Shown here piece after piece: positions 5,856-21,288 of a stretch of DNA of 37,729 bases; the stretch's first letter is position 1, and each line of letters opens with the position of its first letter. The translations under genes and the position numbers were made by a program. The stretch spans positions 1 through 37,729 of the forward strand of contig DATEAH010000003.1 of NCBI GenBank assembly GCA_035288465.1, in the 5' to 3' direction. The notes below the pieces were generated by a model. That model ran no database searches. It saw nothing but the letters and a program-made list of their open reading frames with translations, and was not told the origin of the DNA. The stretch is from Patescibacteria group bacterium. GTDB lineage: Bacteria; Patescibacteriota; UBA1384; DATEAH01.

Positions 5856-6824
5856 ATGAAGACGTTGAGAGCAAGTATCATTATTGTCAGTTACAACGCC
5901 AAAAATGACTTAGCAGTATGTCTGAGAACGATTTTTGAATTTACAAAAACTAATTTTGAAATTATCGTGGTTGACAATGCTTCGACGGATGGCAGTGGCG
6001 AAATGGTGGCGAAAAAATTTCCCAAAGTTAAATTAATCGAAAACCGCCAAAATCTCGGATTTGCTCAGGCAAATAATCTGGGGGCTAAAATTGCTCAGAG
6101 CGATTATTTGGTTTTGTTAAATCAGGATACTTTAGTGAGCCGGGACTGGCTTTTAGAATTATTGGCGCCATTTTGCCAGGATAAAAAAATTGGAATTGTT
6201 CAGCCAAAAATTAAAATCTATCGAAAAAATCAAATTAATTCAACTGGTTCCCTGACCCATTTTCTGGGTTTTACTTGGGCGGGAAATTGTTTTGAGCCTG
6301 ATTGTGGCTTTGAAAAAAATGCCGAAATCTTTAGCGCCTCTGGCTGTGTTTTGGCAATTAGGCGAAAGTTGTGGCAAAAATTAGGCGGTTTCGATCAAGA
6401 TTATTTTATGTATTTAGAGGATGTGGATTTAGGCTGGCGGACGAGATTATTAGGCTATAAAATTATTTTTGCGCCAAAATCGATAATATATCATAAATAT
6501 CATTTTTCAAAAGGCGACTATAAGTATTTTTATTTGGAAAAAAATCGATTGGCGACCTTATTTAAAAATTACTCAAGTGTGAGTTTGTTAATATTTTCGC
6601 CAGCAATCATTTTGAGCGAATTTATACTCCTATTATACTTTATTCCTAAAGGAAAATTAAAAATCAAACTTCGCGGCTTGGCGGCCTTTTTTGCGAGTTT
6701 GCCAAAAATTTGGCAGAAAAGAAAGAAGATTCAAAAAACGAGAAAAATTTCTGACCAAAAAATATTTTCGCAATTTTCCACCACCCGCCAACTTTTTCGG
6801 GCCGTAAAAAAAACTGGACTTTAG
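5856..6824 (+). CDS. Glycosyltransferase family 2 (rhamnosyltransferase-like)
   Basis: 322 residues of GT-A fold. The opening IIIVSYNAKNDL and VVDNASTDGS bind the nucleotide sugar. LLNQDT (Asp91) takes the place of the DxD metal motif, as is usual in the WcaE/rhamnosyltransferase branch. YLEDVDLGWR is the acceptor/catalytic ED motif. A C-terminal hydrophobic segment (about residues 240-260) and a basic tail suggest membrane association. No strong Shine-Dalgarno is seen before ATG 5856. The stop codon overlaps the stop of the converging minus-strand operon by four bases (6821-6824). The enzyme probably adds a sugar during assembly of the lipid-linked glycan. Confidence 0.88.
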   Translation: MKTLRASIIIVSYNAKNDLAVCLRTIFEFTKTNFEIIVVDNASTDGSGEMVAKKFPKVKLIENRQNLGFAQANNLGAKIAQSDYLVLLNQDTLVSRDWLLELLAPFCQDKKIGIVQPKIKIYRKNQINSTGSLTHFLGFTWAGNCFEPDCGFEKNAEIFSASGCVLAIRRKLWQKLGGFDQDYFMYLEDVDLGWRTRLLGYKIIFAPKSIIYHKYHFSKGDYKYFYLEKNRLATLFKNYSSVSLLIFSPAIILSEFILLLYFIPKGKLKIKLRGLAAFFASLPKIWQKRKKIQKTRKISDQKIFSQFSTTRQLFRAVKKTGL

Positions 6825-7666
6825 TGTAAGTTAACAACCCTAAGGTTCATGAGCTCAATATTATAATAGACCAAAAAAGCTGCACTAATCATAATTACCA
6901 AAATTGTACTTAATTTAATTAGGGCTTGGAACCAATTTTTTTGTTGCCGGGCAAATTTCCAAGTTAGGGCAAAAATAAAGGCTAAGGTGGCGAGAAAATA
7001 TAAGGGCAATAAAATTAGCCAAGAAATTTTTTTGAAAAAGAAAGGTTTGAGTTGGCTGAAGCGGTTTAAAAGGGTGTTGGTGAATTGGCCATAATTTTCT
7101 TTATAGTAAATTTTAAAAACCATATCAAGATTAGTTTTTTTGCCCTTTAAAATCAAATTGCCGTTTTCATAATTTGCATCAAGCTTTAAGGTTGAAACGG
7201 CGTTGCCGGGAAATGAAGTTGGTGATTCTAAATAAAAATAATAATCTTTGTTGGCGGAATCTAAAATTGGCTTAAAACGGAAGTTGATAAAGGCCATGTC
7301 ATGGATATTTTGGGCGTTAAAATTGCCTGACCTTAAATCGATTTTTGAGCTGGTACTTTCGCGCAAATGAAAAATAATTTCCTGATTATTAAGACGAGGG
7401 TAGGTAGCAAATAAAACTGAGATTTGAGCCAAATTATTATTATCAGCGTGAAAGGTTTGGCCAAAAGTATTAAGGCCCCTAATTTCTCCCAGGGCTGGTT
7501 TTTTTCTCTCGACTGATCTTGAAAAGCCATTAATTTGGTTGAATTGTAAATAGTCATTATTAAATAAAAAACCGAGAGAAATAATTAACAAAAAAATTGA
7601 AAAAAGAGTCCCAAAAATTATGGCAATAATTTTTTTAGAAAATTGTGAATCGATTTTTTTTATCAT
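6821..7666 (-). CDS. Membrane protein of unknown function, last gene of glycan operon
   Basis: The start is ATG 7666, whose ATGA overlaps the stop of the upstream gene (7663-7665); a longer frame from 7702 would read further into that gene without reason. The protein is 281 residues: one membrane segment near residues 12-37, an extracytoplasmic domain of about 150 residues rich in short beta-type stretches, then two C-terminal membrane segments with a basic loop between them. I do not recognise the family. The layout (one helix, beta domain, two helices) and the translational coupling to a GT-C enzyme suggest an accessory or glycan-sensing partner of that enzyme, but this is inference. Confidence 0.75.
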   Translation of the reverse strand: MIKKIDSQFSKKIIAIIFGTLFSIFLLIISLGFLFNNDYLQFNQINGFSRSVERKKPALGEIRGLNTFGQTFHADNNNLAQISVLFATYPRLNNQEIIFHLRESTSSKIDLRSGNFNAQNIHDMAFINFRFKPILDSANKDYYFYLESPTSFPGNAVSTLKLDANYENGNLILKGKKTNLDMVFKIYYKENYGQFTNTLLNRFSQLKPFFFKKISWLILLPLYFLATLAFIFALTWKFARQQKNWFQALIKLSTILVIMISAAFLVYYNIELMNLRVVNLH

Positions 7667-9129
7667 AAATAATACCTGGGAATTATATATTGGAATAGAC
7701 AAATAAAGTTATAAAAAATTATGCCTAAGCTTAAAAATAGATATAAAGATGGGTGATATTTTTTGGGCAGCCATGTTTGGATCCCAATGATAAAAAAAAT
7801 GGCTAAAATTCCCAAAACCGGAAAATAATATCGGCCCTGTGCTGGAAAAATATATTTAGCAGTTGTAACTAAACGATTGTAAAATAAATAAACATAAAAT
7901 AAATCTAAAATAATTAAATTTGCTGCTAAAAAAATATATAAATAGAGATTTTTGATAAACGGATTGTTGGTTTTAATTTTTTTAACACACTTTTTATAAA
8001 GGCTGGTGACAAAATAAATAATTGTACCCACAAAACTTAATTTAACCAACCAGTTCAAGCTATTTTGATAAATATTATCAACAACATTATTCGTCCAAGC
8101 AAATTGTGCCCAAAAATAACCCAGCACAAATCTTAGTCTGGTGCCATAAATAAATTTAAGATATTCCCAAATTGATAAATGAGCAAATTGTGTATCAGTT
8201 GTTCCAGAAGCTTGATATCCAAACCAGCCATGGTAAATAATTTTATTTCGAATAAGCCACCAGCCAGTAGTCAAAAAAATAATTCCCAAAGCAATGGCTA
8301 AATATTTGAGGGAATTTTTAAAATTATTTCTTTTTCTGACAAAATTTATTAAATAAATAAAAATTAAAATTGGAATCATAATAGCGGCTTGTGGTTTTGC
8401 CAAAATTCCGAGCGAAGTAGCGATCCCAATCCATAACGCGGACTTAGTCGAACTCTGGGATTTTAGTTCACGAATTCCTAAATAGGTTAACCAAACAAAG
8501 GCAAGATTTAATAAGTTATCATTATTAATAGTTGAGGACATTAAGGTAAAAAGTGGCTGAAATGAAACTAAAGTCGCAACTGTAAATGAAAATAATTTAT
8601 TTTCAGAAACTTCAAAAGCAATTTTATAACTTAACCAAACCGTTAGAATGCCCAGAAAGATTAATAATATCCGAATTGCGAAAAATCTCACCAAAAAATT
8701 GGTAGAATAAAATATCTTATAGATTCCCGCCCCCATTAAATAATAAAGTGGAGGATATGATTGGGCAGAAAAAGCTGTGATTGGTGAGGCGGGAGCGCGG
8801 TTTATATTTTGATTTAGAAGATTTTCTCCAATTCCAGTTTGAGTTTGTGAAAATTTCGGAGTTTGTCTTATCGGCGCGTTTGAAATAAGCTTATTGACAA
8901 TTTGATCTTCTTGAGAAGTAAAAAGTTTATCTTGCGGTGGGAGTGTGTTTTTTTCGGCAATATATTCAATATATTTATAATGATAATTTTCATCCCAACC
9001 TTGCCAAACTGGAACCAAACCAGCCCAAACAACACCCTTGATAATTATTAAAAACAATAATATCGACAATAGTTTATTGCTGGTTATTTTTTGCCAAATT
9101 AATATTAAAATTTTTCTAATTATTTTCAT
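7663..9129 (-). CDS. GT-C superfamily membrane glycosyltransferase (PMT/ArnT-like)
   Basis: 488 residues with about eleven membrane segments. After the first helix comes the loop PVWQGWDENYHYKY, with Asp46-Glu47 in the position of the catalytic acidic pair of GT-C enzymes. A long extracytoplasmic loop follows (residues 50-125, ending YPPLYYLMG). This arrangement fits enzymes that use polyprenyl-phosphate sugars outside the cell membrane. The start overlaps the stop of the 9126 gene by four bases (ATGA), and its own stop overlaps the next gene in the same way, so three genes are translationally coupled. A DUF2142-type relative is an alternative label. Confidence 0.78.
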   Translation of the reverse strand: MKIIRKILILIWQKITSNKLLSILLFLIIIKGVVWAGLVPVWQGWDENYHYKYIEYIAEKNTLPPQDKLFTSQEDQIVNKLISNAPIRQTPKFSQTQTGIGENLLNQNINRAPASPITAFSAQSYPPLYYLMGAGIYKIFYSTNFLVRFFAIRILLIFLGILTVWLSYKIAFEVSENKLFSFTVATLVSFQPLFTLMSSTINNDNLLNLAFVWLTYLGIRELKSQSSTKSALWIGIATSLGILAKPQAAIMIPILIFIYLINFVRKRNNFKNSLKYLAIALGIIFLTTGWWLIRNKIIYHGWFGYQASGTTDTQFAHLSIWEYLKFIYGTRLRFVLGYFWAQFAWTNNVVDNIYQNSLNWLVKLSFVGTIIYFVTSLYKKCVKKIKTNNPFIKNLYLYIFLAANLIILDLFYVYLFYNRLVTTAKYIFPAQGRYYFPVLGILAIFFIIGIQTWLPKKYHPSLYLFLSLGIIFYNFICLFQYIIPRYYL

Positions 9130-10058
9130 GTCTTTTTGGGTTTGTAGTTGGAATTTAACAAAAGATGACTAAATATTGGTCCCAAGGTAAATAGAATTAT
9201 CATCGCAATGGCACGTTCAGCCACGGCTACTATTATTGCTTCGGCTGAGGTGACGTTGATAATTCGAGCTGATATTATCACCAAAGCTTCTTTGATGCCT
9301 AAGGCGCCAGGAGTCAGATTAATCAAAACCGAAAGTGCGGCCACGGTGCTAATGAAAATAGCTTTAAAATAAGTGATGTCAATATGAAAGACACGAAAAC
9401 CAAGATAGTAAATCATTGAACTTAAAAACATATTGAGCAAGGAAAAACCTGAAAGTAATAAAACTAATTTATAATTTTTTCTAATTTTGTGCCAGCAATT
9501 TATGGCTAAAATAAATTTTTGAAGCCAGCGATTTTTGGAGGGTTTGAAGTTTGGTGAAAGAATGATTATCGCGGTACAAAAAACAAAAATTCCACCGAAA
9601 AGTAAGCTAATAGGTAAATTAAAGATACGATCAGACAAATAAAATTTCAGTAAGATTAAACCGGTGACAAGGGAATTTACGAAAAAGACAATAATATAAT
9701 TTGCCGCCAAGGTACCGACAAACTCGGAATAGCTAAATTGATAATGCTTTTTTAAATAAAGAGCCCGGATAGCCATGCCACCGTATAAAAAAGTTAGATA
9801 ATTAGTCATGCTGCTTATGATTGCGAGACCAAAATGTTCGAGAAAGCTTAATTTAATTTTGAATTCAAGCATCGTAAAATATAGAAAAAAGCCGATCGAA
9901 ACAAAGACCATTAAATACATGATGATTAAAATAGCCAAATATGGCCAAGAGATAGACAAGAGAGGCGTAAAATCTGCCCGATGCTTAAAAACATAATAAG
10001 CCAACCAGGTGATTAAACCTGCCAAAACCATAAACGATAAAATTTTTTTATTTTTCAT
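9126..10058 (-). CDS. LPG synthase TM / flippase-like family membrane protein (UPF0104, AglD-like)
   Basis: 310 residues with about eight membrane helices. The pattern is that of the lysylphosphatidylglycerol synthase transmembrane family without the catalytic C-terminal domain. The conserved elements are a YGGMAIRALYLKK-like segment near residue 95 and LTPGALGIKEALVI near residue 250, with ERAIAMIILF near the end. Stand-alone members are common in glycan clusters and are often annotated as flippase-like; a role in lipid-linked sugar handling is plausible but unproven. AGGA upstream supports ATG 10058. The gap to the previous gene (33 bases) is the widest in this operon. Confidence 0.83.
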   Translation of the reverse strand: MKNKKILSFMVLAGLITWLAYYVFKHRADFTPLLSISWPYLAILIIMYLMVFVSIGFFLYFTMLEFKIKLSFLEHFGLAIISSMTNYLTFLYGGMAIRALYLKKHYQFSYSEFVGTLAANYIIVFFVNSLVTGLILLKFYLSDRIFNLPISLLFGGIFVFCTAIIILSPNFKPSKNRWLQKFILAINCWHKIRKNYKLVLLLSGFSLLNMFLSSMIYYLGFRVFHIDITYFKAIFISTVAALSVLINLTPGALGIKEALVIISARIINVTSAEAIIVAVAERAIAMIILFTLGPIFSHLLLNSNYKPKKT

Positions 10059-10091: not shown

Positions 10092-10826
10092 TTATTTTTT
10101 GGTTGCTTGGCAAAATAGGATAGCCCCTTTTTCATTTTTGGTGGCTTTTTTTCTGGCAATCAAGTATAAAAATGGGAAAATTATCAATCTTTTCAGTTGG
10201 CTTCGGGTGGTATAGAAAGAATGAATTTTGTCTTGGGTGTCTACATAAAATAAATCATTAATTTTAAAACCCAAAGGGGTAAGAAGCTTCGTCATTTGAG
10301 ATTTTGAATAACCTGTTCTGACATGACCAATTTCTTTTTCCCTTTTTTCAACAATTTCTCGATAAATACTTGGAACACTTAAAATCAAAAATCCTGACTG
10401 TCGCAACATTGAATTAAGTTTTTTAATAAATTTAGAATCATTTTGAATGTGTTCGATGATGTCTAAAGCAATAATACCGTCAAAATAATAATGATATTCT
10501 AATTTATTAACATCACTGGCGATAAACTTTGCTTTTAGTTGATGGATTTTGGCTATTTTTTGCGCTTGCCTCATCCTATTTTTTAAATCGACGCCAACCA
10601 CATTTGCACCTTTTTCGGCTAAGATTAAGGCAAAATCTCCGATGGTGCAACCAACATCTAAAATTCTTTTACCTCGAATTTTATTCGGCAATAATTCCTT
10701 CGTGAATTTATATCTCAGTCTTTTGGCGAGCAAGGGTAATCCGAAAAGCCATAAATATAGAATAATCAACCATTTATTTTTCGGTTTTTTGATGATTTGC
10801 AAATATAATTTATTAATAATCTTCAT
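10092..10826 (-). CDS. Class I SAM-dependent methyltransferase
   Basis: 244 residues from ATG 10826, which overlaps the upstream stop as ATGA; four codons further upstream there is another ATG that lies inside the previous gene. Motif I is ILDVGCTIGDFA, motif II VVGVDL, motif IV IIALDIIEHI, and post-IV LILSVPSIYRE. This is the layout of Methyltransf_11/23 enzymes that methylate small molecules or sugars. A basic, aromatic N terminus (first 40 residues) may contact the membrane. It lies directly after another methyltransferase in the operon, so the pair may modify different positions of the same glycan. Confidence 0.87.
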   Translation of the reverse strand: MKIINKLYLQIIKKPKNKWLIILYLWLFGLPLLAKRLRYKFTKELLPNKIRGKRILDVGCTIGDFALILAEKGANVVGVDLKNRMRQAQKIAKIHQLKAKFIASDVNKLEYHYYFDGIIALDIIEHIQNDSKFIKKLNSMLRQSGFLILSVPSIYREIVEKREKEIGHVRTGYSKSQMTKLLTPLGFKINDLFYVDTQDKIHSFYTTRSQLKRLIIFPFLYLIARKKATKNEKGAILFCQATKK

Positions 10827-11524
10827 CTTGTTTTCCAAGCCTTAATCGCCAGAAAAGCGGCATGTCTAGGATTGATTTTACCAAAGCTCGTCGGAAATGG
10901 ATAGTAGCCAGAACCTAAAATTTTTTCAATTTTAAAACCTTTCTCTGTGCAAAATTCTTTTAAGCCCTGGTATGAAAAAACCCGTTGATGTTGCCATGAT
11001 TGAGGAAAGGGCATAATTTGATTTTTATGAGGGGCTAAGGGATTTCCTATCGAAAATTTATTTGAGCTGATATTGGTGAGGGAAAATGGCTGCCAACCAA
11101 ACATTAAAGCGAATATATTATGCCAACTTGCCAAATTTTCGGTACAAATGATGGCATATCCGCCCTTTTTTAAAATCCGGTGAATTTCTCCCAAAAAGGC
11201 GTCGGTGTTAGTTAGGTGCTCAATGACTTGATTTGCCAAAACGATATCAAAAGAATGCGCCGGAAAGGGGATTTTTGAATTCAAATCGCCCTTTTTGACG
11301 ATAATTTTTCTTTTCTCGGCTTTTTTGATTTGGGAATTGATAATTTCCACGCCCCAGTTTTTTTTCGTGCCAATTTTTTTAGCCACTAATTTGGTAAATT
11401 TACCATCATCGCAACCCAAGTCTAAAAATTTCGCTTGGGGATTTTTTTGGGCTAAACGCAAAATATCATTTTCGTAACTCTTTTTAGCTTTTCGCCGCAG
11501 GCTTAGAAACAATTTTTTAATCAT
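10823..11524 (-). CDS. Class I SAM-dependent methyltransferase
   Basis: 233 residues: motif I FLDLGCDDGKFT, motif II WGVEII, motif IV FDIVLANQVIEHL, post-IV GGYAIICTEN. The central W-rich loop (LASWHNIFALMFGWQPFSL) recurs in methyltransferases of polysaccharide clusters. The ATG directly follows the stop of the upstream GT2 (TAA then ATG, no gap). The substrate is unknown; a sugar O-methyltransferase role is inferred from context. Confidence 0.87.
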   Translation of the reverse strand: MIKKLFLSLRRKAKKSYENDILRLAQKNPQAKFLDLGCDDGKFTKLVAKKIGTKKNWGVEIINSQIKKAEKRKIIVKKGDLNSKIPFPAHSFDIVLANQVIEHLTNTDAFLGEIHRILKKGGYAIICTENLASWHNIFALMFGWQPFSLTNISSNKFSIGNPLAPHKNQIMPFPQSWQHQRVFSYQGLKEFCTEKGFKIEKILGSGYYPFPTSFGKINPRHAAFLAIKAWKTR

Positions 11525-12478
11525 TTAATATTTCCTAAATAATTTTAATAAGATGCCCTTTAAGACGCCGGCGCCAAAAACACTCGTGATAATTGGTAAA
11601 TAATACACTGAAAATATTAATTCTTTGGGATTATTTGAAATTAAGATGGCGATTAATAATAATATCATAAGCCACGAGGCAATTAAATATAAAAACCATA
11701 AAGGTTTAATCGCTAATATCAACAAAGCAGAAATTATTATAATAATAAAGAGCCAAAATAAATAATAAAATCTTCGGCTAGGCTGAAAATAATAATCCGT
11801 AAAACGGGGTGCGCGCTCAAAAAGGTGTTTAATTTGCTGTTTTACGTTTGACCTAAGATGATAAACTGGCTTAATCTTTGAGGTTTTTAATATTTTTTTC
11901 TTTTTAATAATATTCCAGAATAGCCTAACGTCGTCGGAACTGAATTTTGATAATTTTTTAGGTTGAGAGTCTATGAATAATTTTCTATTACAAAAAAAAA
12001 TGGCGGTACCTTTGGGAACTTGATCGAAATTTTTCTTGCCAATTATTTCAGATTTAAGATTTTTTTTAAAATATTTCTTACCAAAAATTTTTTGGCGAAT
12101 TAAGATCAAAACTTGATTATACGGATCAATTTTTCCTTTAATGGTGACATGGCCAATTAAGGGTTGATAATTAATTTGGCCAAGGGTTATTAAGGTATTT
12201 TTGTCTAAAATTCGGCGCACATCGACAAATAAAAGATTTCTAAAATTTGCAGCCTCAGCGCCTTTTAGCCGAGTTTTAAGTCGGCCTTGGTTTTTTCTGA
12301 GATTTATAATTTTGACCGGAAATTTTTTTATCACCTTTAGGGTATTATCTTTCGAGCCATCGTTGACGACAATGATCTCAAAATTTTTTTTAGGATAATT
12401 TTGTTTTAAAATTGCTTTCAGGCACCTAGCAATGACTTTTTCTTCATTGTAAACCGGGACAATGACAGAAATTTTCAT
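11525..12478 (-). CDS. Glycosyltransferase family 2 with membrane tail; altered DxD motif
   Basis: 317 residues. The GT-A start is unmistakable (VIVPVYNEEKVIARCL, VVNDGSKDNT, then the NQG segment). Where the metal-binding DxD is expected the protein reads FVDVRRI (Asp86, Arg88), so one acidic residue is replaced by a basic one. Further on, SSDDVRLFW is a candidate for the catalytic ED/DD motif. Residues 230-310 hold two to three membrane helices. ATG 12478 overlaps the upstream stop (ATGA). Either this branch uses the first Asp only or activity is changed; it is otherwise intact and not decayed. Confidence 0.83.
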   Translation of the reverse strand: MKISVIVPVYNEEKVIARCLKAILKQNYPKKNFEIIVVNDGSKDNTLKVIKKFPVKIINLRKNQGRLKTRLKGAEAANFRNLLFVDVRRILDKNTLITLGQINYQPLIGHVTIKGKIDPYNQVLILIRQKIFGKKYFKKNLKSEIIGKKNFDQVPKGTAIFFCNRKLFIDSQPKKLSKFSSDDVRLFWNIIKKKKILKTSKIKPVYHLRSNVKQQIKHLFERAPRFTDYYFQPSRRFYYLFWLFIIIIISALLILAIKPLWFLYLIASWLMILLLIAILISNNPKELIFSVYYLPIITSVFGAGVLKGILLKLFRKY

Positions 12479-14223
12479 TTGGCCGCCTTTTTCATCGTCA
12501 CCACAAAATAACTGCCAAAATATTTTAATAGTGAATCAGCCAGTTTTTTTTCTAGAAATCGGTAAATTGGCGCTAAGACTGGGACGCGGAAGAAAAAATT
12601 AAAAGGCGTGATAATTCTAATGCCGCGAACCTTTTCTATTTTAACATTTTTGGGCAAATATGATTTGATTTTTTTCAAGCTGTCGTAGCGAATGTAAACA
12701 TTGTCGCGAACCATAAAATGTTGAATAAAATTAGTCACAAATTTAAGACTATAAGGATTATAAAATTCTAAAACCACATAACCGCCATTTTTAGTGACTC
12801 GGCTGATTTCCAAGATCGCTTTTTTTATTTCTGGAACATGGGCTAAAACCTTAAAAGAATAGCTGATATCAAATGTTTGGTTAGGAAATGGAATTTGGGT
12901 GGCTGAACCTGTTTGAGCTTTGAGTTTTTTGCGTTTAGAAACAGCCACCATGCCAGGTGATAAATCGATGCCAAAAGCCTGTTTGGTTTTTTGATCCGCC
13001 ATTTTGAGGATAATCCCGGTCCCACAGCCGATTTCTAAACTCTTTTTAGCTTTTAGAAAAGGCTGGATGGTTTCAAATTCTAAATCATTAATCACGGAAT
13101 AATATTTACCGGTTCGTTCTTGGTCATAGCTGTGAGAATAATCATCGTAATAATTTTGGATTTTTTGCTTTTTTTGTAGATTATTTTCAACGGCTGTTAA
13201 ATATCCTAAAATTAGCTTTTTCATATCAAAATTATCTTGAATCGTTTTTCGAGCCGCGATTCCTAGTTTTTTGATTTGGCTGGGATTTTTAGCTAAAAAT
13301 TGAATCTGTCTTTTTAGGCCTTTTTCGTCTTTATAGAGTAAACCATTTTTTTGATTTTTGATAAGGCTGGAAAAAGCGGCGGTATTTGAGGCGATTACCG
13401 GGATGGCATTAGCCATGGCTTCTAAGGCAATATTGGAAAAACCGAGCACGGTTTTGGCAGATTTATAAGGCAGAACCACAAAATGACATTTTTTTAATTC
13501 CTCGAGTAGTTTTTCTTTTTTTAAATAGCCTAAAAATTTAATATTTTTATTTGATTTTACCGCAGATTTTACCTCGTCTTTTAAGGGACCATCTCCGGCT
13601 ATAATGAGTTGAACTTTGGGCATATTTAATTCTTTAAAGGTTTGAATCAGCAAACCTATGCCTTTGAGCGGAGTAAGGTGGGAAAAGTAGCCGATTTTAA
13701 TTTGCGAAAAATCTAGCTCTTTTTGTCCTGGGGGGTGATTTAAATTTAATCCTGGGGTCAGAGTTTGAGCTTTTAAGCCTTTATTGTTTAAAGTTTTAGT
13801 AATTTGTGGGTGAGTCGCATATATGGCGTCGTATTGTTGCCAAACCTTTTTGGTTAAAGGTAAAAGCCGATGAGTAAAATGAGTTCCTTGTTGAATAATA
13901 ACTGGGGCCTTAGTTTTTAATTTAATGGGCAAAAAATACCAAGGAGTAATATTTGGATTGTGAACGCCGGATAAAATCCAGACCAAATCTGGATTAATTT
14001 TATTAATAATTTTGGCAGAAGATCTCGGGAAATTACCAGTAGTTTTAAAGATTTTAAAACCAGATTTCAAAATCTGGTTTGGTTCATGCTCGGTTTTTTT
14101 GGCGGAAATGACAGAAATTTCCGCTTTTTTAGCCAAGGATTCAGCTAAAGTGTAGGCAAAATCTGAGAGCCCGGAAACTCTTTTTGAAGGATAAAAATAT
14201 TTACAAACAAGAGTAATTTTCAT
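12475..14223 (-). CDS. Fusion: GT4 glycosyltransferase + SAM methyltransferase
   Basis: 582 residues in one frame. Residues 1-370 are a GT-B glycosyltransferase 4: N-terminal GLSDFAYTLAESL, then IIAGDGPLKDEV, FLGYLKKEKL and the donor site GFSNIALEAMANAIPVIAS. Residues about 375-582 are a class I methyltransferase opening with YYDDYSHSYDQERTGKYY, motif I LEIGCGTG, motif II FGIDLS, motif IV FDISYSFKVLAHV and post-IV GGYVVLEFYNP. Fusing the two implies sequential action: a sugar is transferred and then methylated, or the methyl group caps the chain. It directly follows (TAA/ATG junction) a second enzyme-methyltransferase fusion in the operon. Both halves look complete. Confidence 0.9.
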   Translation of the reverse strand: MKITLVCKYFYPSKRVSGLSDFAYTLAESLAKKAEISVISAKKTEHEPNQILKSGFKIFKTTGNFPRSSAKIINKINPDLVWILSGVHNPNITPWYFLPIKLKTKAPVIIQQGTHFTHRLLPLTKKVWQQYDAIYATHPQITKTLNNKGLKAQTLTPGLNLNHPPGQKELDFSQIKIGYFSHLTPLKGIGLLIQTFKELNMPKVQLIIAGDGPLKDEVKSAVKSNKNIKFLGYLKKEKLLEELKKCHFVVLPYKSAKTVLGFSNIALEAMANAIPVIASNTAAFSSLIKNQKNGLLYKDEKGLKRQIQFLAKNPSQIKKLGIAARKTIQDNFDMKKLILGYLTAVENNLQKKQKIQNYYDDYSHSYDQERTGKYYSVINDLEFETIQPFLKAKKSLEIGCGTGIILKMADQKTKQAFGIDLSPGMVAVSKRKKLKAQTGSATQIPFPNQTFDISYSFKVLAHVPEIKKAILEISRVTKNGGYVVLEFYNPYSLKFVTNFIQHFMVRDNVYIRYDSLKKIKSYLPKNVKIEKVRGIRIITPFNFFFRVPVLAPIYRFLEKKLADSLLKYFGSYFVVTMKKAAK

Positions 14224-16005
14224 TTAACTCTTTTCTGCAATCAAACAAATTCTTCTTTGAAAAAATGGTTTAAAATATGGAATTTTCATCATCAGTTTTT
14301 CAAGTGTCGAAAAAACCGGAAAATGAGATGACTTGTAGAATAATTTATTAATTATAAAATTTAATTTTAATAATTCTTTTTTCAAGTCACCGGGACTCAT
14401 TACGTTTACGTGGGTTGGATCTTCTTTTAAAAGAAGATTTTTTTTTCTCATCTTTTCAAATAAATGGTTTTTATTGGGAGTATAAATTATTAATTTACCG
14501 TCTTTTTTCAATAAACGCCCGCATTCTTTAAGGGTTTGTCTAAAAGTATGTTTGGTAAGATGTTCGACTAAATCGGCTAAAATTATTTTATCAAATTTTT
14601 GATCTGCAAAGGGTTGTTTATGAGCCGGGCATTGAATAAATTTAATATTACTAATTTTTCGTTTTTTTGCCTCATTAATACAGTTGTAAATAGCTATTTT
14701 AGATAAATCGGTGCCAATTACTTTTGCACTATAACGGGCGCATTCAAAAGCAAAGGTGCCATTTGCGGTTCCGATGTCTAAAATTTTTTCATCAGTCGAA
14801 ATCGGCAGAATCATTTCCATAACATTTTTAATTTTATTGAGATAATGTTTTGCACTTTTATTTTTTTTGTTAAGGGCATTATTAAAATATTGTTGGCTGT
14901 ATTCTCGACCCGAAATTTTTTCGATCAAAAAATTATTTTTTAAATAGTCAACAATGATTTGACTAGGATTGGCGGGAATATTTTTAGGTTTGAATTTTAA
15001 TTGCTGATAATTATCTAAAAAATAATTTATAAGCCGGATTTTATATTTGGATAAAACGACATTTTTCCCTAAGCCTTCTTTACGTTCAGTGGCCTTTCTA
15101 AGTAACAAACAGGGTTTGCCCAAATAATAACACTCCTCTTGATTCGAGCCGCCGTCAGTCATAATAAATTCAGCATGATCTAACAATTTGATGAATTGAA
15201 AGTAATCATAGCGGGGGCGAAGCTCAATATTTTCGTTTTTCGCTAAGCGCGACCAAAAACCAAATTTTTTTAAATTTTTTTTGGTGGGCGGATGTAAAAT
15301 TACTAAGACTTTAATTTTTAGAGAAGCTTTTTCAATAATTTCGATGACTTTTTCGAAGCTATTTCTATTAAAAATATTTTCAAAACGATGCGTTGAAACG
15401 ATCGCAAATTTTTCCTTAGGAATATCAACCTTAATGTGATGTTCGTTTTTCAACGCTAATCTTAAAGCATCTAATAAGGTATTGCCATGGGTATTAATTT
15501 TGATGCCTCGATATTTTTTAAGATTTTTATAAGACCAGTTATCCGGACAAAAAAAGACATTTGACATCCGAAATACGAGCAAGCGGGTCAATTCCTCGGG
15601 AAAAGGATGCCAAAGATTAAAAGACCGCAAGCCAGATTCTAAATGCCCAACTTTTAATTTGGCAATTTTAGCCATGGCTGCGCCCAAAAAAGTGGAGAAG
15701 GTATCACCATGCACCAAAACAATTCCAGACCGATCGTTTCGAAAAATTTGTTTTTTATGGAGAATGGTTTTGGCTAAAATTTTTATCGACCAGGTAATCA
15801 TTTTGGGAATCGAGGTAATATCCGGTCCGTGGTATAAAACTACATCAGGATTTTTTAGGTTAAAAATTTTTCTTAAATTTGAGATTGTTTCTTGATGTTG
15901 ACCGGTAAAAATAAAATTAAAAGGAATTTTCCTTTTTTTTAGCTCCACCATCACCGGAGCAGTTTTAATCAATTGTGCTTTGGTACCAACCACAAAATGA
16001 ATCAT
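14224..16005 (-). CDS. Fusion: UDP-GlcNAc 2-epimerase (WecB-like) + SAM methyltransferase
   Basis: 593 residues. Residues 1-365 match non-hydrolysing UDP-GlcNAc 2-epimerases: the opening GTKAQLIKTAPVM, LVHGDT (Asp101), HLESGLRS (Glu123), PFPEELTR, STHRFEN (His206), TDGGSNQEE, and a C-terminal TERKEG. Residues about 375-593 are a methyltransferase with YSQQYFNNAL, motif I LDIGTANGTFAFE, motif II VIGTDLS, motif IV IILADLVEHL. The epimerase would give UDP-ManNAc, the substrate for the dehydrogenase at 16958. The start overlaps the upstream stop by one base (TAATG). Such fusions are unusual: epimerases act on free nucleotide sugars, so the methyltransferase may act on the same sugar, or be fused only for co-expression. 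Confidence 0.88.
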   Translation of the reverse strand: MIHFVVGTKAQLIKTAPVMVELKKRKIPFNFIFTGQHQETISNLRKIFNLKNPDVVLYHGPDITSIPKMITWSIKILAKTILHKKQIFRNDRSGIVLVHGDTFSTFLGAAMAKIAKLKVGHLESGLRSFNLWHPFPEELTRLLVFRMSNVFFCPDNWSYKNLKKYRGIKINTHGNTLLDALRLALKNEHHIKVDIPKEKFAIVSTHRFENIFNRNSFEKVIEIIEKASLKIKVLVILHPPTKKNLKKFGFWSRLAKNENIELRPRYDYFQFIKLLDHAEFIMTDGGSNQEECYYLGKPCLLLRKATERKEGLGKNVVLSKYKIRLINYFLDNYQQLKFKPKNIPANPSQIIVDYLKNNFLIEKISGREYSQQYFNNALNKKNKSAKHYLNKIKNVMEMILPISTDEKILDIGTANGTFAFECARYSAKVIGTDLSKIAIYNCINEAKKRKISNIKFIQCPAHKQPFADQKFDKIILADLVEHLTKHTFRQTLKECGRLLKKDGKLIIYTPNKNHLFEKMRKKNLLLKEDPTHVNVMSPGDLKKELLKLNFIINKLFYKSSHFPVFSTLEKLMMKIPYFKPFFQRRICLIAEKS

Positions 16006-16955
16006 TATTTAAAATATCTTTTTTTCTCAAAATATAGTATTTTTTCTTGGTTTAATCTTAATCTAAACAGCATTTCCGCTATTAGGGCTAAAACAATTAA
16101 TAGAAAGCCGACGATCATTAATAACATTGAAACATAGACATAACTAACATAAGGTGAAACATGATGAGTAATGAGCCAGCGAATAAAAATAGACAAACCG
16201 CCCAAAAATCCAGGTAAAAATAAAACCATACCTACACAACCAAAGAATTTTAAGGGTTGGTAGTCTCGAAAGCTTCTGAGAATGATTTTAAAAACTTGCC
16301 AGCCGTAGTTAAAAAGATTTTTGGCAATTCGAGATTTACGGTTTTTAAAATATTTAACCGCGATTAGGACTTCGCCAATTTCTAAATCTTTAGCGGCCAA
16401 ATCTAAAAACATTTCTTGGGTGTAAGTAAATTTACCAAATAAATTTAAATTTAACAAGGCTTCGCGAGAAAAGGCGCGAAAACCGCAAGAAACATCATAG
16501 ACTCGTTTTTTGATTGCCCAACTAATAAATTTAGCTAAAATTTTATTGCCGAGCAATTTTGCGCCTGATAAATTTTTAATTTTGCGATTGTCAATAAATC
16601 TCGAACCAGTCACGAAATCTGCTTGGCGGTCTAAAATTGGCTGGATTAGCCGGGGGATATCTGAGGTGGAAAACTGGCCATCCGCATCAATATTCACCAT
16701 AATATCCGCTTTTAATTTTAAGGCTTGATTGATGGCGGTACGCATTGCTTTTCCGACACCAAGATTTTTAGGGTGAGAAACCACATAATCGGCGCCGGCT
16801 TTTTTAGCCACCTGAACCGTTTTGTCGGTTGAGCCGTCGTCAATAACCATCACTTGAACCTGATTAATGCCTTTAATTTTTCTGGGAATTTGGGAAATGA
16901 CTTTGGCAATATTTTCCGCTTCGTTTAAAGCGGGAATATTTACAATTAATTTCAT
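16005..16955 (-). CDS. GT2 polyprenyl-phosphate sugar synthase-like (DPM1/GtrB-type) with C-terminal helices
   Basis: 316 residues. The catalytic domain is of the dolichol/undecaprenyl-phosphate glycosyltransferase type: IPALNEAENIAKVI, VIDDGSTDKT, NLGVGKAMRTAI, metal motif NIDADGQF (Asp90, Asp92), TGSRF and CGFRAFSREAL. Residues 235-310 form two membrane helices, as in GtrB-like enzymes. It would make the lipid-linked sugar donors that the GT-C enzymes of this window (3988, 7663, 19369) use. The gap to the upstream dehydrogenase gene is two bases. Confidence 0.88.
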   Translation of the reverse strand: MKLIVNIPALNEAENIAKVISQIPRKIKGINQVQVMVIDDGSTDKTVQVAKKAGADYVVSHPKNLGVGKAMRTAINQALKLKADIMVNIDADGQFSTSDIPRLIQPILDRQADFVTGSRFIDNRKIKNLSGAKLLGNKILAKFISWAIKKRVYDVSCGFRAFSREALLNLNLFGKFTYTQEMFLDLAAKDLEIGEVLIAVKYFKNRKSRIAKNLFNYGWQVFKIILRSFRDYQPLKFFGCVGMVLFLPGFLGGLSIFIRWLITHHVSPYVSYVYVSMLLMIVGFLLIVLALIAEMLFRLRLNQEKILYFEKKRYFK

Positions 16956-16957
16956 AA

Positions 16958-18214
16958 TTATCGTCCAATTCCTTTATATGGAATACCTAATTGTTGAATT
17001 TTGTTTTTGCCTAAACTGTTTTTGCCATCAACGATCGCAATAATTTTGTTTCTTTGCCAGGTTTCAGGTTTAATGTTGATAAATTCATCGTGATCAGTGG
17101 CTAAAATTACAGCTTGGCTTTTTTTTAAAATTTCTGCCAAACTTTTGCAGGTGGAAATTTCCGGCACATATGGATCAAAAGTTTCAAAACGAATCTTTTT
17201 TTGTTTTAAAATTTGGACAATTTTTAACGCCGGGCTTTGTCTTAAATCACCGACACCTTTTTTATAAGATAAGCCTAAAACGCCGACTTTTACTTGATTT
17301 AATTTTTTATTTTGTTTTTTGAGTAAAATTGAAAGTTGTTGAACTGTGTAACTAGGCATAGAATTGTTAATTTTTCGAGCCAGTTTCAAAAAGCGATGGT
17401 TAAAGCCGACTTTAGCCGCTTTTTGAATTAAATAATATGGGTCAACGCCAATGCAATGGCCACCTACTCCACAAGAGGGATAATGAGGCAAGAAAGCAAA
17501 GGGTTTGGTTGAGGCGCCTTTAATAACTTCTAAGACATCAATGCCCAAAGTGTCAAAAGAACGCGCCAATTCATTGACATAAGCGATATTGATATCACGA
17601 AAAGTATTTTCAACGATTTTGGTCGCTTCAGCTTCTTTAATGCCCTTGGTTTTATAAATTTGGGCGGAAATAATATTGGAATAAAATTTATAGGCTAAGT
17701 CGCGGCTTTTGGTGTTAATGCCACCAACAACTCGGGGGATATTATGAATCGTCCATTTGGTATTGCCCGGATCAATTCTTTCTGGACAATGGGCATAATA
17801 AAAATCTTCGCCAACTTTATATCCAGAACTCTCTATTATAGGAATGATAACTTCTTCGGAGGCGCCAGGGTTGACGGTTGATTCCAAGATTATTAATTGT
17901 TTTGGCTGGAGGTGTTTGGCGATACTTTTAGAAACGTTTTTAAGCGGGGTGAGGTTTGGGGTGTAATCTATATAAACTGGAGTCGGCACAGAAATGATAA
18001 TAATATTGGCTTTTTCCAAAACCTCGTCATCGGTGGTGGTTTCGAAATTTTGGTTTTTAAATTTTTTTTCAAGATTTTGGGTTTTTTCGGGATCAATATC
18101 AAAACCGATCAGGTGATACTTCTTATTTTTAATGATAGCTTCGGTTAATGCAGAACCGACATAACCTAAGCCCATAATGACGACATTTTGTCGTTTTTTG
18201 GAAATTTGCTTCAT
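16958..18214 (-). CDS. UDP-sugar 6-dehydrogenase (WecC/WbpA-type, UDP-HexNAc dehydrogenase)
   Basis: 418 residues, the usual length for the UDP-GlcDH/MDH family. The Rossmann motif is GLGYVG (residues 15-20); ESTVNPGA and CPERIDPG are family signatures; the catalytic cysteine is Cys254 in GVGGHCIGVDPYYL; the C-terminal domain has GLSYKKGVGDLRQSP. The GVGGHC-x-VDPYYL form points to the UDP-N-acetylhexosamine branch (WecC, WbpA) more than to UDP-glucose dehydrogenase. With the WecB-like epimerase two genes on, UDP-ManNAcA is the likely product, though UDP-GlcNAcA is possible. It is the first gene of the operon, with Shine-Dalgarno AGGGG and promoter upstream. Confidence 0.9.
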   Translation of the reverse strand: MKQISKKRQNVVIMGLGYVGSALTEAIIKNKKYHLIGFDIDPEKTQNLEKKFKNQNFETTTDDEVLEKANIIIISVPTPVYIDYTPNLTPLKNVSKSIAKHLQPKQLIILESTVNPGASEEVIIPIIESSGYKVGEDFYYAHCPERIDPGNTKWTIHNIPRVVGGINTKSRDLAYKFYSNIISAQIYKTKGIKEAEATKIVENTFRDINIAYVNELARSFDTLGIDVLEVIKGASTKPFAFLPHYPSCGVGGHCIGVDPYYLIQKAAKVGFNHRFLKLARKINNSMPSYTVQQLSILLKKQNKKLNQVKVGVLGLSYKKGVGDLRQSPALKIVQILKQKKIRFETFDPYVPEISTCKSLAEILKKSQAVILATDHDEFINIKPETWQRNKIIAIVDGKNSLGKNKIQQLGIPYKGIGR

Positions 18215-18231: not shown

Positions 18232-18259
18232 ATTATATATCAAATTCAGAATATTTCAA
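18232..18259 (-). promoter_or_regulatory. Promoter of the minus-strand glycan operon
   Basis: On the minus strand: TTGAAA (18259-18254), a 16-base spacer, TATAAT (18237-18232), then AGGGG five bases before the ATG at 18214. Its -35 box coincides with the -35 region of the opposite promoter. Confidence 0.75.
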
Positions 18260-19025: not shown

Positions 19026-19402
19026 TGTTTTTAATTTTTAAAACTCATCAAATTTTTGGCTTTGTCGTGAGCTTATTATTTTTAATTTTAATTATTGAAA
19101 TGGTGAGACGCCGCAAACTGCTTGAAGGTTATTCTTTGCTCTGGATTTTTACCGGTTTAATTTTAGTGGTGATTTCTTTATGGGAAAAATTATGGATTAA
19201 AATCGCCAGTTTACTGGGGATTGTTTACGCTCCCTTTAGTTTGTTGATTTTCTTTTCATTATTTTTAATTATTGTTTGTTTAGATTTTTCGATGAAAATC
19301 TCCAAATCGAGCCAGCAGATTAAAGGCTTGATTCAAAAAGTAGCGCTTTTAGAAAATAAGGTTGAAAAATGCCAAAAAAAATCTTCAAAATCGAAAAAAT
19401 AA
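19025..19402 (+). CDS. DUF2304 family small membrane protein
   Basis: 125 residues with three membrane helices (about 7-25, 38-55 and 68-88) and a charged coiled-coil-like tail (residues 92-125). The MVRRRKLLEGYSLLWIFTG segment, with basic residues after the first helix, is typical of DUF2304. It is coupled to the GT2 by a one-base stop/start overlap. Proteins of this family accompany GT2 enzymes, probably as a membrane partner. The molecular function is not established. Confidence 0.82.
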   Translation: MFLIFKTHQIFGFVVSLLFLILIIEMVRRRKLLEGYSLLWIFTGLILVVISLWEKLWIKIASLLGIVYAPFSLLIFFSLFLIIVCLDFSMKISKSSQQIKGLIQKVALLENKVEKCQKKSSKSKK

Positions 19403-21288
19403 AAACTAAAATTTGGCTGGGCGTGGTTTTTGCTTTGCTTTTGTCGGTAATGATGTTTTTTGCACCCACTTTTCGCCAAAAACAAATTACGACAGGTGAT
19501 GAGCCTCATTATTTACTAATCACTCAAAGTTTAATTTTTGACCATGATTTGGATTTGAAAAATAATTATGACCAAAGAGATTATTTAAAATTTCATCCTC
19601 AGGATTTGCCTGATCGTCATACGGTTTTGGTGCGAGGCCATGAATTTCCGGTGGCGGGAATTGGTTTCCCGATGTTATTGATGCCATTTTATTTGGTTGG
19701 GCCAAGAATTGCAGTGATGGTGTTATTTAATTTGGTGGCAGCTTTGCTGGCAGTGAATTTATTTTTGGCGGCTTTTGAAATTACCAAGCGTAAATTATTA
19801 TCTTTTTTCTTGGCGTTAATTTTTATTAGCACTTTGCCGTTATCAATATATGCTTTTCAAATCTATCCGGAATTAATTGTTGGATTAATTATTCTTTATG
19901 CTTTTCGGAAAAAATTTTCACCCTTAGCGATTTTGGGGATAGCTTTTTTGCCTTGGCTTCACGCAAAGTTTTATTTGGTGAGCTTGTTCTTTTTGGGCTA
20001 TTATTTATGGAAAAAGAAATTTATCCCAGCTCTAGGCATTTTGGTTTCTTTGGTGGGTTTGGCGATTTATTTTAAATTTTTATATGGCAGTTTTTTGACG
20101 ACGGCTCAAGTTTCAGAAGCTGGAGTTTGGCCAAGTTATTCAGGAATTTTAGGTTTATTTTTGGACCGCCAGTTTGGGCTAATCGCCTGGAATTGGTGGT
20201 ATTTGTTGGTGCCTTTTGGTTTAATTTTATGGTTTAAATTGGCTAAAACTAAACTAGAAAAAGAAAATTGGTATTTATGGTTGGGTTTGTTTTTGGTGCT
20301 ATTTTTACCGCATGCGCTTTTTAAATATTGGACCGGGGGTTGGTCGCCAGCCGCTCGATATTTGGTGCCAATTATACCCTTGTTTATTTATCCCATCGCT
20401 TTTTTATATCAAAAATTCCACGGTCGGATTTTTAATTTTCTGTCAGATTTTTTGGTCACAATTTCTTTAGCTTTAAGTGCAATTGCACTGTCTGTGCCAG
20501 CGATACTTTTTAGTTCGCCACAAACTGGAACACAAAACCAGCTCTTGGTGAAAATCGGCTTGCCAGAAATTTTACCCTCTTTTATAAGATTGAATCATAC
20601 AGATTGGTGGTTGATAATAATTTGGTTTGCGGGATTTATTTTGGCAATAATAATTTTTGCCTATAAAATCGACCCGAAGTTTTTCTCAAGGTTTTTAAAA
20701 TTAGCCTTAGTATTATGGCTAATTGTGGCAATTTTGGCCTTTTTCAATTTATCATTAGCCGGCAAAACCGCGCTCTCAACACCCATAAACTGGACGCGCG
20801 CCTTGGTTTTGAATAATTGGTCTTATCAAGCTGAGGATTTGGCCAGACTTGCCGGAGAAGTCAAGCCAGATTCAAAAGCTCAGGGCGGACAATATTTAAC
20901 AACCACCCCCACGCAAGCCAAAAATATTTATTTTATTTTTGGGCCATTGGCAACTTTAATCCCCGGAGAATATCAAGCGACTTTTCGTCTTAAAACCGAC
21001 AAAACTGAACTGGGACATTTGGCAGATATTGAAGTCGCCACCAAACAAGGCGCTAACAAACCAGCGATGAAAAAAATTAATGGCGCAGATTTTGTCAAGA
21101 CAAACGAATTTCAAGATTTTACTCTAAATTTTAGCACCTCGGGTAGCCGCTCTTTTGAGTTTCGGGTATATTATCTTGTAGGCGATTTAGGGGTTGATGA
21201 TATTAAAATAAAAGTGCAAAAAAGAAATTGGCAGGAATTATTTCGAATGGTACCGGAAAAATTAATCAATAAATTTTCTAAAAAGTAG
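19369..21288 (+). CDS. GT-C membrane glycosyltransferase with C-terminal beta-sandwich-like domain
   Basis: 639 residues. After the first helix the loop reads QITTGDEPHYLL with Asp44-Glu45 in the GT-C catalytic position. About eleven further helices follow to residue 470. Residues about 480-639 are soluble and beta-rich (GEYQATFRLKTDK, DFTLNFSTSGSRSFEFRVYY, DLGVDDIKIKVQ), ending in the VDDIKI strand seen in jelly-roll carbohydrate-binding folds. A glycan-binding role is inferred. The start overlaps the DUF2304 gene by 34 bases; AAGG lies eight bases before the ATG and no later Met is plausible. Probably transfers a lipid-linked sugar outside the membrane. Confidence 0.78.
   Translation: MPKKIFKIEKIKTKIWLGVVFALLLSVMMFFAPTFRQKQITTGDEPHYLLITQSLIFDHDLDLKNNYDQRDYLKFHPQDLPDRHTVLVRGHEFPVAGIGFPMLLMPFYLVGPRIAVMVLFNLVAALLAVNLFLAAFEITKRKLLSFFLALIFISTLPLSIYAFQIYPELIVGLIILYAFRKKFSPLAILGIAFLPWLHAKFYLVSLFFLGYYLWKKKFIPALGILVSLVGLAIYFKFLYGSFLTTAQVSEAGVWPSYSGILGLFLDRQFGLIAWNWWYLLVPFGLILWFKLAKTKLEKENWYLWLGLFLVLFLPHALFKYWTGGWSPAARYLVPIIPLFIYPIAFLYQKFHGRIFNFLSDFLVTISLALSAIALSVPAILFSSPQTGTQNQLLVKIGLPEILPSFIRLNHTDWWLIIIWFAGFILAIIIFAYKIDPKFFSRFLKLALVLWLIVAILAFFNLSLAGKTALSTPINWTRALVLNNWSYQAEDLARLAGEVKPDSKAQGGQYLTTTPTQAKNIYFIFGPLATLIPGEYQATFRLKTDKTELGHLADIEVATKQGANKPAMKKINGADFVKTNEFQDFTLNFSTSGSRSFEFRVYYLVGDLGVDDIKIKVQKRNWQELFRMVPEKLINKFSKK

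Follow-up and report, generated by a model that had tools for sequence, protein, structure and literature searches.

Why should a nucleotide-sugar epimerase and a glycosyltransferase, encoded side by side, each carry a methyltransferase (MT) at the C terminus? This question is raised by a locus in a Patescibacteria group bacterium (assembly GCA_035288465.1; genome 0.75 Mb, 97% complete). The window that we analysed is one complete contig of 37,729 nucleotides (37.7 kb; DATEAH010000003.1), in which ten co-directional minus-strand genes run from 18214 to 6821 with successive spacings of 2, -1, 0, -4, 0, -16, 33, -4 and -40 nt. The third and fourth of these genes are the fusion ORFs, 14224-16005(-) (fusion 1) and 12475-14223(-) (fusion 2), which abut with 0 nt between them and have reading frames open throughout. 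A first-pass annotation had described two adjacent sugar-enzyme/MT fusions in one operon with dissimilar MT halves, and this description was confirmed: Pfam located all four domains where they had been described, the genes are tightly spaced, and the two MTs are distant kin with 19% identity when aligned.

The fusions belong to a ten-gene glycan operon

A consensus scan alone placed a putative sigma-70-like promoter (18232..18259, minus strand; 11/12 matches, the strongest match) upstream of the first operon gene. This gene (16958..18214, -) encodes a nucleotide-sugar dehydrogenase (TIGR03026, 362.8 bits), for which the archaeal UDP-ManNAc dehydrogenase model NF040825 is the best-scoring equivalog at 275.3 bits, below its cut-off of 750. 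The second gene (16005..16955, -) encodes an AglJ-like polyprenyl-phosphate glycosyltransferase of family GT2, which at 155.6 bits falls short of the 325-bit AglJ cut-off (TIGR04182) and is hence related to AglJ rather than an equivalog.

Fusion 1 (593 aa) joins a 2-epimerase domain (residues 1-358; 14932..16005, -; Epimerase_2, PF02350, at residues 22-315, E=1e-54) to the MT mtE (14224..14928, -; Methyltransf_31/25/11 at residues 404-528, E=8e-22). Fusion 2 (582 aa) joins a GT4 domain (residues 1-345; 13189..14223, -; Glycos_transf_1 at residues 174-326, E=5e-24) to the MT mtG (12475..13188, -; Methyltransf_11 at residues 396-485, E=7e-22). The GT4 half was identified as a retaining GT4 glycosyltransferase by PF00534 and PF13692 (85.1 and 83.3 bits). 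Both MTs were assigned to the class I S-adenosylmethionine (SAM)-dependent enzymes by profile score (PF13847, 77.9 bits for mtE; PF08241, 78.3 bits for mtG) and by motif I with an acidic post-I loop (LDIGTANG...GTDLS and LEIGCGTG...GIDLS, respectively).

Downstream lie a GT2 glycosyltransferase (11525..12478, -; PF00535), conserved in the cassette at 43% in genome G111 and 37% in genome G098, and two free-standing class I MTs identified with Pfam, mt3 (10823..11524, -) and mt4 (10092..10838, -). Orthologues of mt3 occur near the epimerase in Shapirobacteria and Levybacteria (55% and 51%). The run continues with an LPG_synthase_TM flippase-like membrane protein (9126..10058, -; PF03706, 2e-19), which is a recurrent neighbour, and a GT-C-like membrane protein of the DUF2142/PMT_2 type (7663..9129, -; PF09913, 8.5e-17; PF13231, 2.4e-14), and ends with an ORF of 293 aa (6821..7702, -) that matched nothing in Pfam or NCBIfam. 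A 639-aa ORF within the same glycan island (19369-21288) also had no Pfam match.

The epimerase defines a separate 2-epimerase subfamily

The epimerase had been called WecB-like. It does have the Epimerase_2 domain and the catalytic residues of that family, but against the wecB equivalog (TIGR00236, cut-off 210.15) it scores 190.8 bits as a whole protein and 192.5 bits for the epimerase part, and it falls outside the canonical enzymes in a clade of its own. This clade is set apart from canonical WecB relatives with 100/100 support on a long branch, although the bootstrap was not fully settled. An epimerase profile scan gave more than 500 relatives, of which the best 80 loci were read, and the subfamily ranges over many bacterial phyla and some archaea. 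Where WecB/MnaA enzymes have GTRPE and DSGGxQEE, the subfamily has GT[KR]AQ and DGG[SG]NQEE (GTKAQ and DGGSNQEE in the window). Of 89 subfamily ORFs, 86 have GT[KR]AQ and 88 a DGG variant.

The structure predictions suggested for both fusions succeeded in part. The epimerase half of fusion 1 was modelled at ~95 pLDDT and the chain past residue 360 mostly at 35-85, while the predictions for the MT half and for the GT4-MT fusion were poor; since the MT domain is placed without confidence, the model gives no basis for judging domain contact or a channel. In a fold search with the epimerase model the top matches were all 2-epimerases, and the closest solved structure was the Methanocaldococcus jannaschii UDP-GlcNAc 2-epimerase (4neq). 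The likeness to this enzyme and to WecB/MnaA extends to the fold, the length of ~360 aa, the catalytic Asp/Glu/Glu/His and the allosteric-site Gln-His/Arg/His. The roles of the catalytic residues are described for E. coli D95, E117, E131 and H213 (PMC10622841); their counterparts D101, E123 and E137 are invariant in two alignments, and H206 in one of them. By motif spacing, the published active-site residues correspond to K9, K14, D101, E123, E137, H206, E291, R303 and E307, and the allosteric-site residues to Q36, H37, R207 and H238 (PMC10622841, PMC11464976).

Substrate-contacting positions were less uniform. H99 and R308 are counterparts of residues that recognise the 6-OH and 3-OH of UDP-GlcNAc, and these residues have been tied to the use of UDP-GlcNAc, and not UDP-GlcNAc3NAcA, as substrate (PMC10622841). 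Q11, a Glu in the canonical enzyme, matches Gln14 in the enzyme for UDP-GlcNAc3NAcA, and a phosphate-contacting Ser has given way to G285. As Q11 and G285 stand at sugar- and phosphate-contacting positions, the epimerase substrate may differ from UDP-GlcNAc.

The subfamily also differs in its neighbours. An AglJ-like GT2 was the most frequent conserved neighbour, lying at most four genes away at 48 of 88 subfamily loci compared with 1 of 15 canonical-epimerase loci; within the same distance, LPG_synthase_TM proteins were found at 23/88 versus 2/15 loci and a second GT2 at 17/88 versus 0/15, the 15 control loci all being from one phylum. A coherent, uncharacterised 2-epimerase subfamily is thereby defined, often accompanied by a polyprenyl-phosphate glycosyltransferase, which makes a shared surface-glycan pathway testable.

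Fusion 1 recurs in a second phylum

Across genomes, the search for the two architectures was half successful: fusion 1 recurred once, and fusion 2 was seen in the window alone. The second fusion 1 is a 596-aa protein of Nitrospirae bacterium RBG_16_43_11 (locus L092), with 56% identity to the window protein in the epimerase half, 45% in the MT half and an alignment that continues through the linker. Genes for a free GT4 and an LPG_synthase_TM protein come next, so the gene order epimerase-MT, GT4 is common to two phyla. Among the 89 subfamily ORFs from other genomes (88 distinct), a long C-terminal extension was present in this one only; a C-terminal MT, which sets the window and L092 proteins apart from WecB/MnaA, was found in 1 of 88 and absent from 87. 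No further members were found in 380 genomes of the window's phylum, 197 other Nitrospirota or 16 genomes of the class of G111, with few candidates scored per genome, and a genome-collection scan with the fused sequence as query gave no matches. We accordingly discarded the idea of a common architecture. Spread by viruses or plasmids was likewise discarded, as the searches gave just two distant viral matches (30%) and none to plasmids at E<=1e-40.

In G111, which belongs to the same phylum as the window, the epimerase is a free gene (57% to the window) and the next gene encodes a double MT, the second of which is the mtE orthologue (54%). Wherever mtE was found, in three genomes, it thus forms the C-terminal end of a longer chain: it follows the epimerase in two of them and another MT in the third. 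An orthologue of mtE as a free gene did not turn up in the genomes compared. We infer that a G111-like arrangement minus the first MT would yield that of the window. A grouping of the window and L092 as sisters, as expected from a single origin of fusion 1, was neither supported nor ruled out (p-AU 0.31). The presence of the epimerase-mtE pair in two phyla could reflect a tighter functional link than mere neighbourhood. The G+C content of the MT part is ~5 points below that of the epimerase part in each copy (28.7% at 14224-14928 versus 33.4% in the window; 33.8% at L092:11075-11791 versus 38.6% in the Nitrospirae copy).

The GT4 and MT of fusion 2 are separate genes elsewhere

In Candidatus Halobeggiatoa HSG11, GT4 and mtG are separate neighbouring genes with a 4-bp ATGA overlap, beside the same epimerase. 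The free MT shares 46-47% identity with fusion 2 and the free GT4 26-27%, and the fusion point in the window coincides with the Halobeggiatoa gene boundary. Between codons 334 and 377 of fusion 2 there is no in-frame start codon for the MT. A search of 380 phylum genomes and 18 further genomes gave no second GT4-mtG fusion. MT1 of G111 was considered as an mtG orthologue and rejected at 25% identity, its best match being another MT, encoded next to the epimerase of genome G365. Separate genes in relatives, which had been named as a sign of an assembly-caused fusion, do therefore exist (G111 and Halobeggiatoa), but the recurrence of fusion 1 in another phylum speaks against an assembly cause for that fusion. 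The MT, GT4 and flippase genes near the Halobeggiatoa epimerase adjoin an S-adenosylmethionine synthetase ORF with central and C-terminal domains only (L105:5111-5902).

The cassette is prone to fusion

Other enzymes are joined at loci of this type. Candidatus Dojkabacteria UBA3081 has an LPG_synthase_TM-epimerase fusion of 684 aa (L046:2553-4607, on the same contig as L159:1243-3297), and genome G393 has a GT2-LPG_synthase_TM fusion at an epimerase-type locus; both genomes are of the window's phylum. At loci of subfamily epimerases, a Silvanigrellales genome encodes an LPG_synthase_TM-MT fusion (L107:11101-12873) and two Oligoflexia genomes encode MT-GT2 fusions (L140:11896-13380; L152:13304-14803). 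MTs are thus joined to whatever assembly enzyme adjoins them, which weakens the case for a substrate shared by epimerase and MT. A GT2-LPG_synthase_TM fusion (639 aa) near the epimerase at L051:11709-13628 has the domain order expected of AglD-like proteins.

A proposed O-methylated surface glycan

We propose that both proteins are probably multidomain enzymes working in a single glycan assembly line at the membrane, with MTs that O-methylate the sugars of a lipid-linked glycan. The epimerase would supply a UDP-sugar epimerised at C2, in the simplest case UDP-ManNAc made from UDP-GlcNAc, which the adjacent dehydrogenase could oxidise to UDP-ManNAcA; judged by its sequence, the dehydrogenase fits this route, being nearest the UDP-ManNAc dehydrogenase model. 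The AglJ-like GT2 would then prime the polyprenyl-phosphate carrier, and GT4 and the second GT2 may extend the carrier-linked chain. Each MT domain would O-methylate a putative acceptor of its own among the sugars of the lipid-linked glycan as it grows, and the flippase-like and GT-C-like proteins may carry out the last steps of export and transfer. The fusions would chiefly hold neighbouring steps together. Because the MT modules sit on different partners across lineages, a common substrate for epimerase and mtE is not required. The locus has the look of a glycan assembly line built from modules that fuse readily, and not of new chemistry, and the fusions act as pointers that tie methylation to an assembly step.

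The first-pass annotation had instead read the epimerase fusion as a possible sign that the activated sugar is methylated or passed along a channel, i.e. that mtE acts on the UDP-sugar made by the epimerase prior to its transfer, through a channel or by proximity. Fusion 1 has both halves co-conserved in two phyla, and Mimivirus R132 has been proposed to act at the level of the sugar nucleotide (PMC10117803). Yet 87 of 88 other subfamily epimerases manage with no C-terminal MT, mtE is joined to another MT in G111, other MTs are joined to GT2s or to flippase-like proteins, and a channel is beyond judgement from the low-scoring MT model. Moreover, fusion 2 pairs its MT with a GT4 whose Halobeggiatoa counterpart is a separate gene, and known GT-MT fusions act on the sugar just transferred. 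Nucleotide-sugar methylation is possible but we do not favour it, its one argument being the fusion itself, and we regard it as unlikely. The comparison likewise lends no support to a dependence of the epimerase on its MT.

We also find it improbable that the fusions are incidental, that is, pairs of independent enzymes joined neutrally in a compact operon with no functional gain. The zero or negative gene spacings, the split counterparts in relatives and the many different fusion pairs in the same type of cassette are what such joining would leave behind, but the same epimerase-mtE joint in two phyla, together with the failure to find a free mtE orthologue, suggests that some joined state has been kept. 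Also unlikely is the specific proposal that a bifunctional fusion 1 makes an undescribed O-methylated UDP-sugar (e.g. methylated UDP-ManNAc or UDP-ManNAcA) for the AglJ-like primer of an unrecognised bacterial polyprenyl-phosphate glycosylation pathway.

The epimerase/MT boundary of the window lies in a TTTTTT run (14927..14932, -; codons 358-360), and with five Ts codon 360 would be a TGA that ends the epimerase, leaving an overlapping TTG, the sole start codon nearby, as a possible start for the MT. That an extra T joined two overlapping genes, as an artefact or very recent slip, is nevertheless highly unlikely, because the Nitrospirae fusion has different junction DNA, an ATG close to the N terminus of mtE is missing from the window, L092 and G111 alike, stretches of at least six A/T are frequent here (6.5 per kb) so that the coincidence is weak, and fusion 2 has no MT start around its joint. 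A plain assembly artefact was rejected for fusion 1 overall in view of the Nitrospirae copy, with a small risk remaining for the window copy owing to the T-run.

Comparison with known systems

Fusion 2 has glycosyltransferase and MT in one chain, which is the architecture of WsaE and A064R, and may likewise act on one glycan. WsaE of Geobacillus stearothermophilus combines an MT with two rhamnosyltransferases in S-layer glycan assembly, where the methyl group caps the chain (PMC2943079); it differs in its N-terminal MT, its two GT domains, its rhamnan product and the lack of an epimerase fusion. PBCV-1 A064R (GT, GT and C-terminal MT) has been shown to 2-O-methylate the rhamnose just added (PMC9614988). 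Its class I MT is likewise C-terminal to GT domains, but the protein is viral, uses other GT families and has no polyprenyl-phosphate cassette. The Agl pathway of Haloferax volcanii (AglJ, AglM, AglP) resembles the window in having an AglJ-like GT2, a nucleotide-sugar dehydrogenase and an MT in one cluster; AglP is the pathway's MT, and the glycan has a hexuronic acid methyl ester (PMC3871713). The text consulted describes neither a 2-epimerase of the window clade nor an MT fusion, and the GT2 and dehydrogenase of the window are below the equivalog cut-offs. By analogy with WsaE and A064R, and in line with AglP, a polyprenyl-phosphate-linked surface glycan that is O-methylated by MT modules is the best-supported reading. 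Each domain falls in a known family, and GT-MT fusions have been described before; what is new is the architecture of known enzyme families. Neither the epimerase-MT architecture nor the epimerase clade with its cassette was found in the open-access literature searched.

Other arrangements around 2-epimerases

In Pseudomonas, two ORFs that have no Pfam match (L154:7183-9123 and L154:11065-11910; 646 and 281 aa) flank a GT2-epimerase pair, and other gammaproteobacteria have ORFs of ~640-660 aa at the corresponding position. A 658-aa protein of a same-class genome (L015:643-2619) couples an SDR-like stretch at its N terminus to a canonical 2-epimerase at its C terminus and may make a 6-deoxy amino sugar. 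At an archaeal locus (L090:10001-12311), a B12-binding radical SAM protein comes after the epimerase and may serve a further methyl- or deoxy-sugar modification.
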